Positions 16,723 through 22,575 of a stretch of DNA of 64,000 nt are shown here, piece by piece. The stretch is from contig CANLEH010000001.1 in the NCBI GenBank assembly GCA_947489665.1, positions 1,212,501 through 1,276,500 of the forward strand, in the 5' to 3' direction. The translations under genes were made by a program, and so were the position numbers. The first letter of the stretch is position 1; every line of letters begins with the position of its first letter. The stretch is from an uncultured Roseicyclus sp. GTDB taxonomy: Bacteria > Pseudomonadota > Alphaproteobacteria > Rhodobacterales > Rhodobacteraceae. Under the pieces are notes generated by a model that was given only the letters and a program-made list of their open reading frames with translations, made no database searches and had not been told where the DNA came from.

Positions 16723-18114
16723 TCAGGCGGCCGTGTCGGAGATCACGCGGACCTGATTGCGGCCTTGAGATTTGGCGCGGTAGAGCGCCGTATCTGCATC
16801 GTGGATGAGCATCTCAGGCGTTGAAAACCCACTGTGTTCAGCGGGGTAAGTCAGCCCGACACTTGCAGTCACGTGCACCGGCGGCCCGTTGGCGTCGATG
16901 TCGAAGGCAGCTTCACCGATCGAGCGGCAAAGCCGTTCGGCACATTCGACCGCGTTGGAATGATTGATGGGTGACAGGCCGATCAGGAACTCTTCCCCGC
17001 CGATGCGGGCCAGCAGATCGTCATTGCGCAGTTGCGCCCGCAGGCGCGACGCAACCTGTTTCAGGATCGCGTCACCCGCCGCGTGGCCGTACGTGTCGTT
17101 CACCTGTTTGAAATGATCGAGGTCCAGCATCATCACGGCCGGGCCCGGACCCGGCCGCGACATCATCAATTCCAGTTGCGGAAGGGCGAAACGCCGGTTG
17201 TGCAGCCCCGTCAGCGGATCATAGATCGCTGCTTCAAGGCCCGCCCGGACGCCTGCGCGCATGCGATCGGATTGCCGTTTGCGATCCAGCTGCGCGGAAA
17301 TCCGGATTGCCAATTCCTTTGCGTCGAAAGGATCATGCAGGACGTCATTGGCCCCGAGGTCAAGCGCGATGGCCGCGCGCTCCGTATCGCCTTCGGGCAG
17401 GATCATTATGGTTGCCGCATGGCGCGTGCCAGCGCGCGACCGCAGGTCGGACAGCAGACGCAACCCTTCGTTGCGCTGACCAAGATCAACGGAGACAACA
17501 AAGACGTCGGTGGATCGCCCCGTCTCGGAACTGGCCTCGGTCAACGCGGCTTCGCGCGGGATGATGGAGACTGTGCCGCCGAGGCGGTCTTCGATGGCGG
17601 CTTTCCACAAAACCGCGCCGCGCGGGCCGGGAGCGACAAGTGCGACCTTTCCGGGTGCGGCCTTGGCGCTGAAACCGGCGGCAGATTCCGCAAAGCCGAA
17701 CGCCGCGACCGTATCGTTGCCCCCCTGCATCTCACGCACCGCATCGCTGGCCCGCAAAAGGGAGCGGACGCGGGCAAGAAGAGTGACTTCTTCTACAGGT
17801 TTGGTCAGGAAGTCGTCGGCGCCAGCCTCCAACCCCTCCATCTTGGCATCGTGGTCGCTGAGGGCCGTGATCAGCACGACCGGAATGCCCGAGGTCGCGG
17901 GGTCGGCCTTGAGGGCACGGCACACATCAACGCCGCTCATATCCGGCATCATAATATCAAGCAAAATCAGGTCTGGCTTGGTTTCCCGGGCAACGCGCAA
18001 CGCCTCCAACCCATTTTCAGCCTGTTCAACCGAATAGCAGGCAGCCGCCAGCTTGACCTTCATGACGATGCGATTGGTCGCAACATCATCAACGATCAGA
18101 ATTCGCCCGGCCAT
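16723..18114 (-). CDS. pleD: PleD-type response regulator diguanylate cyclase
   Basis: A 463-residue protein with the PleD layout. The first receiver (1-125) has the phosphoacceptor Asp53 in LLDIMMPD and Lys in FLTKP. A second, degenerate receiver follows (about 155-290), then a GGDEF domain with GGEEF at 372-376 and an I-site RNDD five residues before it. It makes c-di-GMP when phosphorylated and is subject to product inhibition; in Caulobacter it controls the motile-to-sessile switch. It is divergent from a DUF3572 gene, a neighbourhood typical of alphaproteobacteria. No divK gene is adjacent. Confidence 0.95.
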   Translation of the reverse strand: MAGRILIVDDVATNRIVMKVKLAAACYSVEQAENGLEALRVARETKPDLILLDIMMPDMSGVDVCRALKADPATSGIPVVLITALSDHDAKMEGLEAGADDFLTKPVEEVTLLARVRSLLRASDAVREMQGGNDTVAAFGFAESAAGFSAKAAPGKVALVAPGPRGAVLWKAAIEDRLGGTVSIIPREAALTEASSETGRSTDVFVVSVDLGQRNEGLRLLSDLRSRAGTRHAATIMILPEGDTERAAIALDLGANDVLHDPFDAKELAIRISAQLDRKRQSDRMRAGVRAGLEAAIYDPLTGLHNRRFALPQLELMMSRPGPGPAVMMLDLDHFKQVNDTYGHAAGDAILKQVASRLRAQLRNDDLLARIGGEEFLIGLSPINHSNAVECAERLCRSIGEAAFDIDANGPPVHVTASVGLTYPAEHSGFSTPEMLIHDADTALYRAKSQGRNQVRVISDTAA

Positions 18115-18512: not shown

Positions 18513-19214
18513 ATGTCCAAAATCGCGGGAATCCTGTTCGACAAAGATGGTGTGCTGTTCGATTTCCAGAAAACCTGGGGCACTTGGGCGGCAGGCATGA
18601 TCACGGATATTGCAGATGGCGATTTGCGCCTGGCTGGACGTTTGGCCAATGCTTTGGACTTCGATTTGCAAATGCAGGCGTTCCGCCCTGACAGCTTTGT
18701 GATTGCGGGAACGGCGCAGCAGGTTGCGGATGCGCTGGCCGCTGAACTGCCGGAATGGGAGCCGTCGGCCCTGTTCACCCATCTCAAGGATGAAACGGCC
18801 CGCGCCCGGCAGGTCGAGGCGGTCCCGCTCAAGCCAACGCTCGCAGGGTTGAAAGGCCGTGGCTTGCGCCTTGGGGTGGCCACCAACGACACCGAGGATG
18901 CCGCGAAAGCCAATATCGCCAGTGTCGGCGCCTTGGATGTGTTCGATTTCGTGGCAGGATCCGACAGCGGATTTGGCGCAAAGCCAGAGCCAGGGATGCT
19001 ACTGGGCTTTGCCGAGGCCATGGATCTGCACCCCGGCACCTTGGTCATGGTGGGCGACAGCACGCACGACATGCACGCGGCGAAAGCGGCGGGCTTTACG
19101 CGGGTGGCCGTTCTGACAGGCGTAGCGACTGCGGCTGATCTGGCCCCACATTCCGATGTGGTGTTGCCGAACATTGGCGCCTTGGCGGACTGGCTGGACA
19201 GCAGGCCGGGCTAA
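18513..19214 (+). CDS. HAD-superfamily phosphatase (phosphoglycolate phosphatase-like)
   Basis: A 233-residue hydrolase. Motif I is FDKDGVLFDF with the two catalytic Asp, motif II is GVATNDT, and motif IV is MVGDSTHDMHAAKAAGF. The helical cap between motifs I and II (about 20-95) places it in the Gph/PGP subfamily that dephosphorylates small phosphometabolites such as 2-phosphoglycolate. It is downstream of the DUF3572 gene with a four-base gap, so the two probably share a transcript. Confidence 0.88.
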   Translation: MSKIAGILFDKDGVLFDFQKTWGTWAAGMITDIADGDLRLAGRLANALDFDLQMQAFRPDSFVIAGTAQQVADALAAELPEWEPSALFTHLKDETARARQVEAVPLKPTLAGLKGRGLRLGVATNDTEDAAKANIASVGALDVFDFVAGSDSGFGAKPEPGMLLGFAEAMDLHPGTLVMVGDSTHDMHAAKAAGFTRVAVLTGVATAADLAPHSDVVLPNIGALADWLDSRPG

Positions 19215-19304
19215 ATACGACGCGCAGCCGTCGCATTCCGTCCATACAGGGCCTCGTTGGTTGGGGATGATACGGCTGAACAGACCGAAAGTCAGCGTGT
19301 CCCC

Positions 19305-20867
19305 ATGAACGAAGCCTCACCTTCCCCCAGACGTCGCAGAGCCGGCGGCCGCGCCGCAGGGGTTGCCCGTGCGGCGGCCCATGTCATTGATCAGACGCCG
19401 TGGCGCGTGCCGGTCAACAATGACCGCCCCACGGAGCCGCTGGATGAAGACGGCGTCCGTGCGATCGACAATGGCGCGATGCGCATCTTGTCGGAGCTTG
19501 GGATCGAATTCCTGAATGATGAGGCGATTGGCCATCTCAAAGAGGCCGGCTGCAAGGTTGAAGGGCAGACGGTCTTCTTTGAGCGCGATTTTGTAGAAGA
19601 AATGGTCGCCAAGGCACCTGAGACTTTCACGATCACCCCGCGCAATCCGGACCGGACCCTGACCATGGGCGGCAAGCATATGGTGTTCGGCAATGTCTCC
19701 AGCCCGCCCAATGCATGGGATATGGAACGCGGCAAACGCCCGGGCGACATGGAAAGCTATGTCGAGTTCATCAAGCTGACGCAGTATTTCAACTGCATCC
19801 ACTTCGCGGGTGGCTATCCGGTTGAACCGATTGATGTGCATGCCTCGGTCCGCCACCTCGATTGCCTTTTTGAGAAGCTGACGCTGACCGACAAGGTGGC
19901 CCATGCCTATTCGCTGGGAGCCGAGCGCGTCGACGATGTGATGGAGATGGTGCGCATTGCCGGTGGCCTGACGCATGAGGAGTTCGACGCCACGCCGCGC
20001 ATGTACACCAACATCAACTCCGTCAGCCCGCTGAAGCACGATTTCCCGATGCTGGACGGCGCGATGCGGTTGGCGCGGCGCGGGCAGCCGGTGGTAGTGA
20101 CACCCTTCACGCTGGCCGGTGCGATGGCGCCGGTGACACTGTCCGGGGCTGTGGCGCTGAGTATTGCCGAGGGGTTGGCCGCGATTGCGCTGTTGCAGTG
20201 GATTGCACCCGGTTGCCCGGTGGCGATTGGAACGTTCACCTCGAACGTCGACATGAAATCGGGCGCGCCTGCGTTCGGGACACCGGAATATATGCGCGCG
20301 ACGCAGATGACGGGCCAGATGGCGCGGTTCTACAAGCTGCCGATGCGCGCAAGCGGGGTTTGCGCGGCCAATGTGCCAGACGGGCAGGCGATGTGGGAGA
20401 CCGCGAATTCGCTTTGGTCCGCGGTGCAATCGGGGGCCAACATGGTCTACCACGCCGCCGGTTGGCTGGAGGGTGGGTTGATCGCCAGCCCGGAAAAGTT
20501 CGTGATGGATTGCGAGTTGCTGCAACAAATCCAGCGCTACTTCGAGCCGATGCTTCTGGGCACCGAGGAAGAGGACATCGCCTTTGATGCCATCCGCGAG
20601 GTTGGCCCAGGCGGGCACTACTTTGGCTGTCAGCACACGCAGGACCGCTATCAGGAGGCGTTTTACGGCCCTTTCCTGTCGGATTGGCGGAATTTTGAGG
20701 CGTGGCGGTTGGATGGCGCGGTCTGGACGGCGGAGCGGGCGCACAAGACCTACAAGGACATCCTCGGAGAGTTCGAGGCACCGCCGATGGATATCGCGAT
20801 CCGCGAGGAGCTGGCGGATTTTGTGGCCCGCCGCAAGTCCGAGGGCGGGGCACCAACAGATTTCTGA
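19305..20867 (+). CDS. MttB-family (non-pyrrolysine) methyltransferase
   Basis: A 520-residue TIM-barrel protein of the trimethylamine methyltransferase family. The basic N-terminal tail (MNEASPSPRRRRAGGRAAG) precedes a full-length catalytic barrel with no in-frame stop, so it is the non-pyrrolysine type. Characterised relatives (MtgB) demethylate glycine betaine onto a corrinoid protein. Segments such as NSLWSAVQSGANMVYHAAGWLEGGL and FGCQHTQDRY are typical. The ATG at 19305 is preferred over an upstream TTG. No corrinoid protein or corrinoid:THF methyltransferase gene is in the window, so its methyl acceptor must be encoded elsewhere or differ. Confidence 0.88.
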   Translation: MNEASPSPRRRRAGGRAAGVARAAAHVIDQTPWRVPVNNDRPTEPLDEDGVRAIDNGAMRILSELGIEFLNDEAIGHLKEAGCKVEGQTVFFERDFVEEMVAKAPETFTITPRNPDRTLTMGGKHMVFGNVSSPPNAWDMERGKRPGDMESYVEFIKLTQYFNCIHFAGGYPVEPIDVHASVRHLDCLFEKLTLTDKVAHAYSLGAERVDDVMEMVRIAGGLTHEEFDATPRMYTNINSVSPLKHDFPMLDGAMRLARRGQPVVVTPFTLAGAMAPVTLSGAVALSIAEGLAAIALLQWIAPGCPVAIGTFTSNVDMKSGAPAFGTPEYMRATQMTGQMARFYKLPMRASGVCAANVPDGQAMWETANSLWSAVQSGANMVYHAAGWLEGGLIASPEKFVMDCELLQQIQRYFEPMLLGTEEEDIAFDAIREVGPGGHYFGCQHTQDRYQEAFYGPFLSDWRNFEAWRLDGAVWTAERAHKTYKDILGEFEAPPMDIAIREELADFVARRKSEGGAPTDF

Positions 20868-20950
20868 TTGTTGCCGCTGCAAAGGGTTTCTTTACCTCTG
20901 GCCACTAGCATCCCGTGGAGCAGTGGTACCAACAAGAGGCAACCCGCCCG

Positions 20951-21538
20951 ATGCATGGCATGATCAACCGCGCGTTCCAGGGGTTTTTGGTGGATACCTA
21001 TGGGCGCGATACATGGGATGAAGTGCGCAGTGTCGCGCAGCTCAGATTCCCCGATTTCGAAGCAATGCTGCGCTATGAAGACAAGGTGACCCTGGATTGC
21101 TTCAAGGCGGCGACCGATGTGCTGCACAAACATCCCAATGCGTTGCTCGAAGACCTTGGCACCTTCCTGATCACACATGAACCCTATGCGCCGTTAAAGC
21201 GCCTGTTGCGGTTTGGTGGATCAACCCTGTCGGAATTCATCCTGTCGCTGGATGAATTGGCCGATCGTGGGCGCATGGCGATGCCGGACATCGAGATGCC
21301 GGAAATCGAAGTCACACAAGGCGCCGAAGCCTCGTTTCGCATCAAGGCGGAATGGGCGCTGCCCGGGGTCGGGCCGATCCTGTTGGGCGCGCTTCGGGCG
21401 ATGGCGGATGATTATGGTGCATTGGCAACGCTAAGCCTGGATGGCTTCGACGGTGCAAGGGAATGCATCCGGATCGACGTGTTCGACATGGCTCATTCCG
21501 AAGGCAATGCCTTCGTTTTGGGGGAGATGCCCGCATGA
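20951..21538 (+). CDS. H-NOX-like (heme NO-binding fold) protein lacking heme ligands
   Basis: A 195-residue protein whose start MHGMINRAFQGFLVDTYGRDTWDEV and the region LLRFGGSTLSEFILSLDEL clearly match the H-NOX gas-sensor fold. By eye, the proximal heme histidine expected in the NLDNLH-type motif is Ala104 (LDELA), and the YxSxR heme-propionate motif has become RIKAE (about 130-134). It is therefore unlikely to bind heme in the usual way. The ATG at 20951 is preferred over an upstream GTG. Its stop overlaps the start of an HNOBA-GGDEF gene by four bases, the typical partner arrangement. Confidence 0.85.
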   Translation: MHGMINRAFQGFLVDTYGRDTWDEVRSVAQLRFPDFEAMLRYEDKVTLDCFKAATDVLHKHPNALLEDLGTFLITHEPYAPLKRLLRFGGSTLSEFILSLDELADRGRMAMPDIEMPEIEVTQGAEASFRIKAEWALPGVGPILLGALRAMADDYGALATLSLDGFDGARECIRIDVFDMAHSEGNAFVLGEMPA

Positions 21539-22575
21539 ACATTCAAGTGCCCAAGCCTCAACCGGGTATTTTGATGCCGAAGCCTGTCATGGACGCATTG
21601 CTGCCGATGCACGTTGTGGTCGACACACGCGGTGCAATCACGCAAACCGGGCCGACATTTGCGAAGATGGCGGGCCAGCAAGAGGTCCTTGGCCGCCCTA
21701 TGATGGATGTATTCTCCATCCGCCGCCCCAGCGGGATAAAGACCTTTGATGCGTTGATGCAAAATGCCGACCAACGGTTGAGCTTGTGTTTGCAACAGGC
21801 CGAGCATTTGCCGTTTCGGGGCGTGATCCTTCCGCTGCCCGATGAAGGCGGCGCGGTTTTGAACCTGTCTTTCGGATTGTCCTTTGCCCGCGCGGTCGCG
21901 GACTTTTCGCTAACGCTCTCAGATTTCGCTGCGACCGATCAGACCATCGAATTGCTGTATCTGAACGAGGCCAAGGCCTCGACCACACGGTTGTCCGAAC
22001 ACCTGACCAAACGGCTGCAAGATGCCAATGCGGTCGCGCACGAACAGGCGCGTACGGATGTTTTGACGGGCCTGTCGAACCGCCGCGCGATGGACGACGA
22101 GCTTGAGCATTTGATGTCGTGTCGGGGCCAGAGCTTCACTTTGATGCATCTCGATCTGGACCTGTTCAAACAGGTCAACGACACCCACGGGCACGCGGCA
22201 GGCGACGCCGTCCTGGTGGAGATCGGCCGCATTCTGGACTACGAGCTGCGGCGCAATGACTTTCCCGCGCGGATCGGGGGCGACGAATTCTTGATCGCGC
22301 TGCGTCCGGCGCAAAGCGACGCGATCGTGTCCCGCATCGCCAAACGCCTGATCGCGCGTATCGAAGAACCGATCGATCTCGGTGAGTTCACGGTCCAGAT
22401 TTCGGCCAGCATCGGAATTGCATCGACCTCTGCCTACGCAAAGCGGCCCTCGGTCGAGCAATTGATGAACGATGTCGATGAGGCCCTTTATGAGGCTAAA
22501 CGCAATGGACGCGGGCGGCACAGCATCTTCAAGCCCAGTGCAGAGAACGCCGTCGCGCCTTTGGACGACAGGTGA
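21535..22575 (+). CDS. HNOBA-GGDEF diguanylate cyclase, partner of the H-NOX-like protein
   Basis: A 346-residue protein. Residues about 30-150 form an H-NOX-associated (HNOBA, PAS-like) sensory domain (VVVDTRGAITQTGPTFAKMAG, GRPMMDVFSIRRP). A signalling helix (about 150-185) leads into a GGDEF domain with GGDEF at 248-252 and an I-site RRND five residues before it. It should make c-di-GMP under product inhibition. The four-base overlap with the H-NOX-like gene implies a stoichiometric complex in which that protein tunes cyclase output. Confidence 0.9.
   Translation: MNIQVPKPQPGILMPKPVMDALLPMHVVVDTRGAITQTGPTFAKMAGQQEVLGRPMMDVFSIRRPSGIKTFDALMQNADQRLSLCLQQAEHLPFRGVILPLPDEGGAVLNLSFGLSFARAVADFSLTLSDFAATDQTIELLYLNEAKASTTRLSEHLTKRLQDANAVAHEQARTDVLTGLSNRRAMDDELEHLMSCRGQSFTLMHLDLDLFKQVNDTHGHAAGDAVLVEIGRILDYELRRNDFPARIGGDEFLIALRPAQSDAIVSRIAKRLIARIEEPIDLGEFTVQISASIGIASTSAYAKRPSVEQLMNDVDEALYEAKRNGRGRHSIFKPSAENAVAPLDDR

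Follow-up and report, generated by a model that had tools for sequence, protein, structure and literature searches.

An H-NOX fold protein without canonical heme ligands, encoded beside an HNOBA-GGDEF diguanylate cyclase in a Roseicyclus genome

Introduction

Canonical H-NOX proteins are considered to signal by a mechanical route: NO breaks the bond between the heme iron and the proximal histidine, helix F shifts, and a rotation of the domain about two glycines brings it into a signaling shape. The breaking of the Fe-His bond is regarded as the activating step (PMC12329717). The hinge is described as two glycines, and a proline as the residue that bends the heme (PMC7108781). A 64,000-nucleotide stretch of DNA from an uncultured Roseicyclus sp. 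(termed the window) contains an open reading frame, P0001, that displays the H-NOX fold but has no histidine at the proximal position. It overlaps the gene of a diguanylate cyclase, P0002. The locus raises the question of what an H-NOX protein does for its partner when the heme ligands are missing; how H-NOX proteins without the histidine signal is a question open in print.

The hnoX-dgc gene pair

20951-21538, plus strand: hnoX-like gene (P0001, 195 aa)
21535-22575, plus strand: dgc gene (P0002, 346 aa), HNOBA-GGDEF diguanylate cyclase
21577-21786, plus strand: HNOBA domain match (PF07701), P0002 residues 15-84
22249-22260, plus strand: I-site RxxD, P0002 R239-D242
22276-22290, plus strand: GGDEF active-site motif, P0002 residues 248-252

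P0001 matches the Pfam HNOB profile (PF07700) with 70 bits (cut-off 25.5) and covers profile positions 1-155 of 163. Its AF2 model has a mean pLDDT of 89.5, and the best PDB match found by Foldseek is the Nostoc H-NOX 2o09 (TM 0.82). A phmmer search of P0001 against solved structures recovered Nostoc Alr2278 and the sGC beta-1 subunit. The first-pass annotation of this DNA had proposed that the H-NOX fold is kept, and the profile score and modeled structure agree with this; it had also placed the two genes and their overlap correctly, the shared bases being ATGA.

P0002 matches HNOBA with 43 bits (cut-off 23.4) and GGDEF with 144 bits. Among 48 aligned partner sequences G248, G249 and D250 of the active-site motif are invariant and E251 and F252 are conserved at 90% or more; in the I-site, R239 is found in at least 90% and D242 in 100%. 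An HNOBA domain, an intact GGDEF motif and an I-site are thus all present, as expected from the sequence of an HNOBA-GGDEF cyclase, and the earlier proposal of an intact c-di-GMP output holds. P0001 and P0002 are the sole HNOB and HNOBA matches in the genome (profile search, E 0.001).

The AF2 model of P0002 (pLDDT 91.9, pTM 0.60) displays a mixed alpha/beta N-terminal domain, a long helix at positions 136-177, and the GGDEF domain. Its structural matches are PAS-GGDEF proteins. Alignment with sGC subunits extends over about 310-315 columns with a poor superposition (TM about 0.35, rmsd >12). The hnoX and dgc genes together can be read as a split counterpart of the H-NOX plus PAS-coil-cyclase arrangement.

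The heme ligand positions of P0001

21260-21262, plus strand: codon GCC, Ala104, at the position of the proximal histidine
21347-21361, plus strand: A133-E-W135-A-L137, the columns of the YxSxR motif

Ala104 aligns with the histidine of the LDNLH stretch in Alr2278 (phmmer alignment). The YxSxR columns were located by alignment with Alr2278 and with canonical relatives. Among canonical H-NOX proteins of the same bacterial family, all 16 sequences carry the proximal His as well as the Tyr and Ser of YxSxR. P0001 lacks both sequence features of a heme-binding, NO-sensing H-NOX: the histidine is Ala104, and AxWxL is found in place of YxSxR. This confirms P0001, at the level of sequence, as an H-NOX fold protein without canonical heme ligands.

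Alignment to characterized H-NOX proteins thus puts no histidine at the proximal site, as the first-pass annotation had claimed. The loss of the YxSxR motif also stands, but not its reading as RxKxE (R130/K132/E134), which is a register slip of three residues. An intact gene beside a cyclase gene, yet without canonical heme ligands, is what the data support.

The model was also compared with human sGC as possible evidence on shape. The values for the NO-activated form (8hbh, TM 0.83, rmsd 2.3) and the inactive form (8hbe, TM 0.80, rmsd 2.7) differ too little, and this line of evidence was rejected.

Distribution in the family

HNOB matches are present in about 296 of the 394 genomes sampled from the same bacterial family. 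Those listed fall into two score classes, the lower of which is orthologous to P0001. The canonical set of 16 comes from 30 high-scoring HNOB loci (L003-L032), the other 14 not being caught by the phmmer queries.

A first set of 95 aligned orthologues has Pro in the proximal column in 68, His in 15 and other residues in 12, and the Tyr of YxSxR in none (0/95). This set was taken from the higher Pfam scores and is enriched in His (15/95 versus 2/76 in the second set). When all 171 genomes that were read are taken together, the window included, Pro is found in 123, His in 17 (9.9%) and other residues in 31. The corresponding figures for 168 distinct sequences, named relatives included, are Pro 108, His 18, Ser 14, Ala 6, Glu 6, Gly 6 and others 10. 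Some relatives, including Dinoroseobacter shibae, keep the proximal His though they too are without YxSxR. Four loci were left out: L041 (internal stop), L039 (caught by neither query), and L304 and L305 (weak match). Among 80 further genomes, G101 gave no match and G036 (split copy) was excluded from the state counts.

The next gene downstream, on the same strand, encodes a cyclase in 93/94 relatives from the first set and in 76/76 from the second (169/170 in total), and the one miss, L111, is a locus that stops at a contig end. The closest named relatives are Roseicyclus. A draw of 385 genomes of the same class gave 11 matches, five of them in the window's family; of the six outside it, five were aligned and all have His. 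No relatives were confirmed in viral contigs.

The missing ligands are no peculiarity of this one gene: their loss is the norm in a group that spans the family and has been described before as Group 5 (PMC8738867).

History of the proximal histidine

Trees were constructed from concatenated hnoX and dgc sequences with the proximal column removed. The larger, of 164 rows, is a quick tree with a midpoint root and many weak deep branches, made after 7 identical and 2 near-identical rows, and 2 that lack a partner, had been removed; a careful tree used 50 rows picked from it.

The 50-row tree places the window in a His-less clade of 18 rows (support 100/100), where the proximal site is Gly in 6, Pro in 4, Ala in 4 and Ser in 4. 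This clade is nested with L093 and L170 in a 20-row clade (99/96), which in turn belongs to a 25-row clade (98/98). Of the seven rows that the latter has beyond the 18, six have His and one has Lys. L093 is D. shibae DFL 12, and its second contig agrees with plasmid NC_009955.1 at every position of the 4000 bases tested. It has a single HNOB protein, with His present and YxSxR absent.

On the 164-row tree, His versus non-His requires at least 10 changes, or 17 losses if His was never regained; 500 shuffles of the states gave 17.3 changes on average with a minimum of 14. A model that allows losses only is as good a fit as a free one (lnL -32.45 versus -32.15), and a non-His root is worse (-38.69). 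The two-state model gives a probability of His of 0.9997 at the 25-row node and 0.93 at the 20-row node that joins the window with D. shibae, falling to 0.13 at the 18-row node of the window and to 0.01 at that of Roseicyclus. The ancestral state would accordingly be His, repeatedly lost, on a tree with weak deep branches, and the window's clade appears to have lost it within a clade that includes the His-bearing D. shibae.

There is counter-evidence. A tree of hnoX alone with a canonical outgroup has Asn (L049) and Pro (L037, L044) in its deepest rows, with weak support and long branches meeting. This tree does not favor an ancestral His, and the history given here is taken from the concatenated trees.

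Conserved residues and selection

21158-21160, plus strand: Gly70, read as hinge glycine
21299-21301, plus strand: Pro117, aligned with a proline of Alr2278 and read as the heme-bending proline
21386-21388, plus strand: Gly146, read as second hinge glycine

Gly70, Gly146, Pro117, Arg87 and Asp153 are invariant in all 168 orthologues (150 non-His and 18 His). By homology, the first three probably correspond to the hinge glycines and the heme-bending proline of canonical H-NOX proteins. Residue 104 varies widely in the 150 non-His sequences (P, S, A, E, G, K, R, Q, N, V or T). Two motifs stand out in these sequences: R83-F88 with G90, where six of seven residues are at 98-100% and L86 is at 93%, and A152-G156 with L158, at 97-100%. 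Twelve columns are invariant across 93 sequences. There is no conserved Cys set; the most frequent Cys column is Cys133 (96/168), where the window has Ala.

Among His-less Roseicyclus-like relatives the dN/dS of hnoX is 0.13-0.20, a sign of purifying selection. That of dgc is 0.16-0.28, and hnoX is the lower in 6 of 6 pairs; the pairs have members in common and dS is high (0.8-1.8), so that the ratios are rough. Of the 171 genomes with a scored state, 170 have an open hnoX frame (L041 and G036 are outside the 171). Broken copies were seen in three relatives, with an internal stop in L041 and in L303 (G176) and a split in G036.

It was suggested earlier that the fold either senses something else or is a constitutive partner. 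Purifying selection together with a conserved hinge is compatible with either.

Two further features of the sequence should be mentioned. His2 (20954-20956) is specific to this family and is found in 98% of the 150 members without the proximal His; at this position the canonical set of 16 shows Lys (8), Tyr (3), Leu (1) or a gap (4). It might anchor the N-terminus to helix F or serve as an alternative ligand. There is also a conserved C-terminal motif at positions 185-190 (21503-21520), for which most relatives have GRxFxL and the window has GNAFVL. It has low confidence in the single-chain model and is a candidate docking tail.

Genomic neighborhood and nitrite reductase

18513-19214, plus strand: HAD-like hydrolase (PF13419), upstream neighbor
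19257-20867, plus strand: MttB-family methyltransferase (PF06253, 740 bits), upstream neighbor
16723-18114, minus strand: PleD-like REC-GGDEF cyclase, close by in opposite orientation

Of 166 loci, 101 have MttB upstream in the same orientation and 87 have the HAD-like hydrolase there, the latter count being affected by flanks that often end before the HAD position. A neighborhood figure legend in PMC8738867 names MTTB and HAD among H-NOX neighbors, the group not being stated there. A tie between His state and MttB linkage was considered and rejected, as there is no difference (7/15 His versus 90/144 non-His loci, p 0.27).

The genome of the window gave no match to cd1 nitrite reductase, and for Cu nitrite reductase only matches of about 38 bits or less (cut-off 296). 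NO production from nitrite by these enzymes is therefore unlikely in it. Across the family, nirS was scored as PF02239 at E 1e-50 or better and nirK as TIGR02376 over its cut-off. A nitrite reductase is present in 10 of 17 His genomes versus 48 of 139 non-His genomes (156 genomes, p 0.064). The first 80 genomes, from the set of 95, gave 9/15 versus 22/65 (p 0.08); 15 non-His genomes were omitted from this test, part of them because of low completeness and the others arbitrarily. The second set gave 1/2 versus 26/74. On the tree there are 6 well-supported independent pairs; averaged over random pairings, nitrite reductase goes the same way as His in 2.8 and the other way in 0.2, a number that cannot reach significance. 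An association of His retention with nitrite reductase is suggestive only and is not claimed. Similarly, W135 occurs in 10 of the 18 rows with His and in 25 of the 150 without, as plain row counts, and is not claimed as a companion of His.

Proposed role of P0001

The explanation preferred here, with a probability set slightly above even, is that P0001 is a regulatory subunit independent of heme. NO sensing would have been lost while docking and inhibition were retained, and the subunit would be either locked or gated by some signal. By analogy, P0001 would dock on the HNOBA (PAS-like) domain of P0002 and restrain the cyclase. The proximal His appears to have been lost in the window's lineage where YxSxR was already missing, and heme-based NO control was very probably lost in this lineage. 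The hinge and the partner being kept, P0001 most likely works without heme. It may rest in an NO-bound-like, partner-inhibiting shape, or another signal may switch it.

If rupture of the Fe-His bond is the activating step, a protein without that bond may rest in the signaling shape. A Shewanella H-NOX mutant with His changed to Gly reportedly behaves as if resting in this shape, and its structure, 2kil, is one of the Foldseek matches of P0001. A permanently locked subunit does not by itself account for P0001 being kept under selection.

The main rival, though an improbable one, is re-use of the old heme pocket for another small molecule, e.g. a metabolite linked to MttB/HAD, that switches the fold and with it the cyclase. 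Most family-motif residues and His2 are kept in the 150 His-less members, hnoX is under more constraint than dgc in all six pairs, and MttB is a frequent upstream neighbor. However, the sequence points to no ligand, the MttB linkage is the same whatever the His state, and conservation may serve partner binding alone.

It is less probable still that P0001 binds heme, through another residue or with no protein ligand, and senses NO. D. shibae H-NOX is without YxSxR yet is listed as a heme NO sensor (PMC8846402), so that YxSxR seems dispensable in this family, and the conserved His2 is in favor of the idea as well. Against this, D. shibae retains the proximal His, the window's 18-row clade has four different residues at that site, and the commonest Cys column is Ala in the window. 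That hnoX is a decaying remnant maintained through its neighbor is very improbable, since the lost ligands and the three broken copies are outweighed by the low dN/dS, the nearly universal open frame and the 12 invariant columns.

The preferred reading, that of a heme-independent regulatory subunit, can be carried further only with considerable doubt: some ten or more times, a heme NO sensor may have been converted into a heme-free switch of the same cyclase, with the empty but still hinged H-NOX domain now reporting a non-gas signal or imitating the NO-bound state. If the His-less form does inhibit its cyclase without NO, "NO sensor" would be the wrong name for most members of the family. The repeated losses, together with the contrast between the His-bearing D. 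shibae, where NO control has been reported, and the window's His-less sister clade, provide matched pairs for direct tests.

Comparison with known systems

Group 5 H-NOX proteins are described as a very large cluster around the Paracoccus denitrificans H-NOX, with His in less than 10% and mostly Pro at the site, with no conserved Cys, and with a signal that is presented as a puzzle (PMC8738867). Judged by this published description, P0001 is a Group 5 protein by sequence: His is present in 17 of 171 genomes, most have Pro, there is no conserved Cys and a GGDEF gene is adjacent. P0001 and P. denitrificans H-NOX (Pden_3719) are homologous (39% identity), have RRLLRFGG and ADDYG in common, and both lie next to a GGDEF cyclase. 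The latter has Pro at the proximal site (HAMBI_2443 sequence; strain Pd1222 is that of PMC5588039). The window differs in having Ala and not Pro, and its clade appears to have lost His separately from the large Pro clades.

PMC5588039 reports that P. denitrificans H-NOX is without the His, that deletion of hnoX lowers biofilm and that deletion of dgcAB raises it; its authors suggest inhibition of DgcA by H-NOX. From the opposite effects, a member without the His does seem to have a regulatory role. In hnoX mutants NO is still active, and PMC5588039 attributes the effects of NO on biofilm partly to H-NOX. A later paper from another group gives c-di-GMP as below detection in P. denitrificans (PMC12582929), so the inhibitory direction derives from genetics.

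The D. shibae H-NOX/Dgc1 pair (Dshi_2815 and its neighbor) belongs to the same orthologue family and the same 25-row clade, has the same kind of partner, and is without YxSxR. Unlike P0001 it keeps the proximal His, and it is reported to inhibit Dgc1 when NO-bound (PMC7232146, PMC8846402).

The pseudo-H-NOX domain of the sGC alpha subunit is likewise an H-NOX fold without heme, and its neighbors are a PAS-like domain and an output cyclase. An N-terminal extension blocks the pocket there (PMC8196705), whereas P0001 has no such extension when read from ATG 20951: it begins with MHG at the canonical position, and the upstream GTG at 20915 adds only 12 residues. The heme-free H-NOX redox sensor of Vibrio cholerae indicates that signaling is possible without heme, but it uses Cys at a zinc site (PMC8738867), and a conserved 3-Cys site is absent from the P0001 family.

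In a search of the open-licence literature, no account turned up of an ancestor with His and its repeated loss, of D. shibae as the His-bearing counterpart, or of selection. The kind of protein is thus already known, and what is new here is the probable ancestral His with its repeated loss, the contrast with D. shibae, and the purifying selection on the His-less form.
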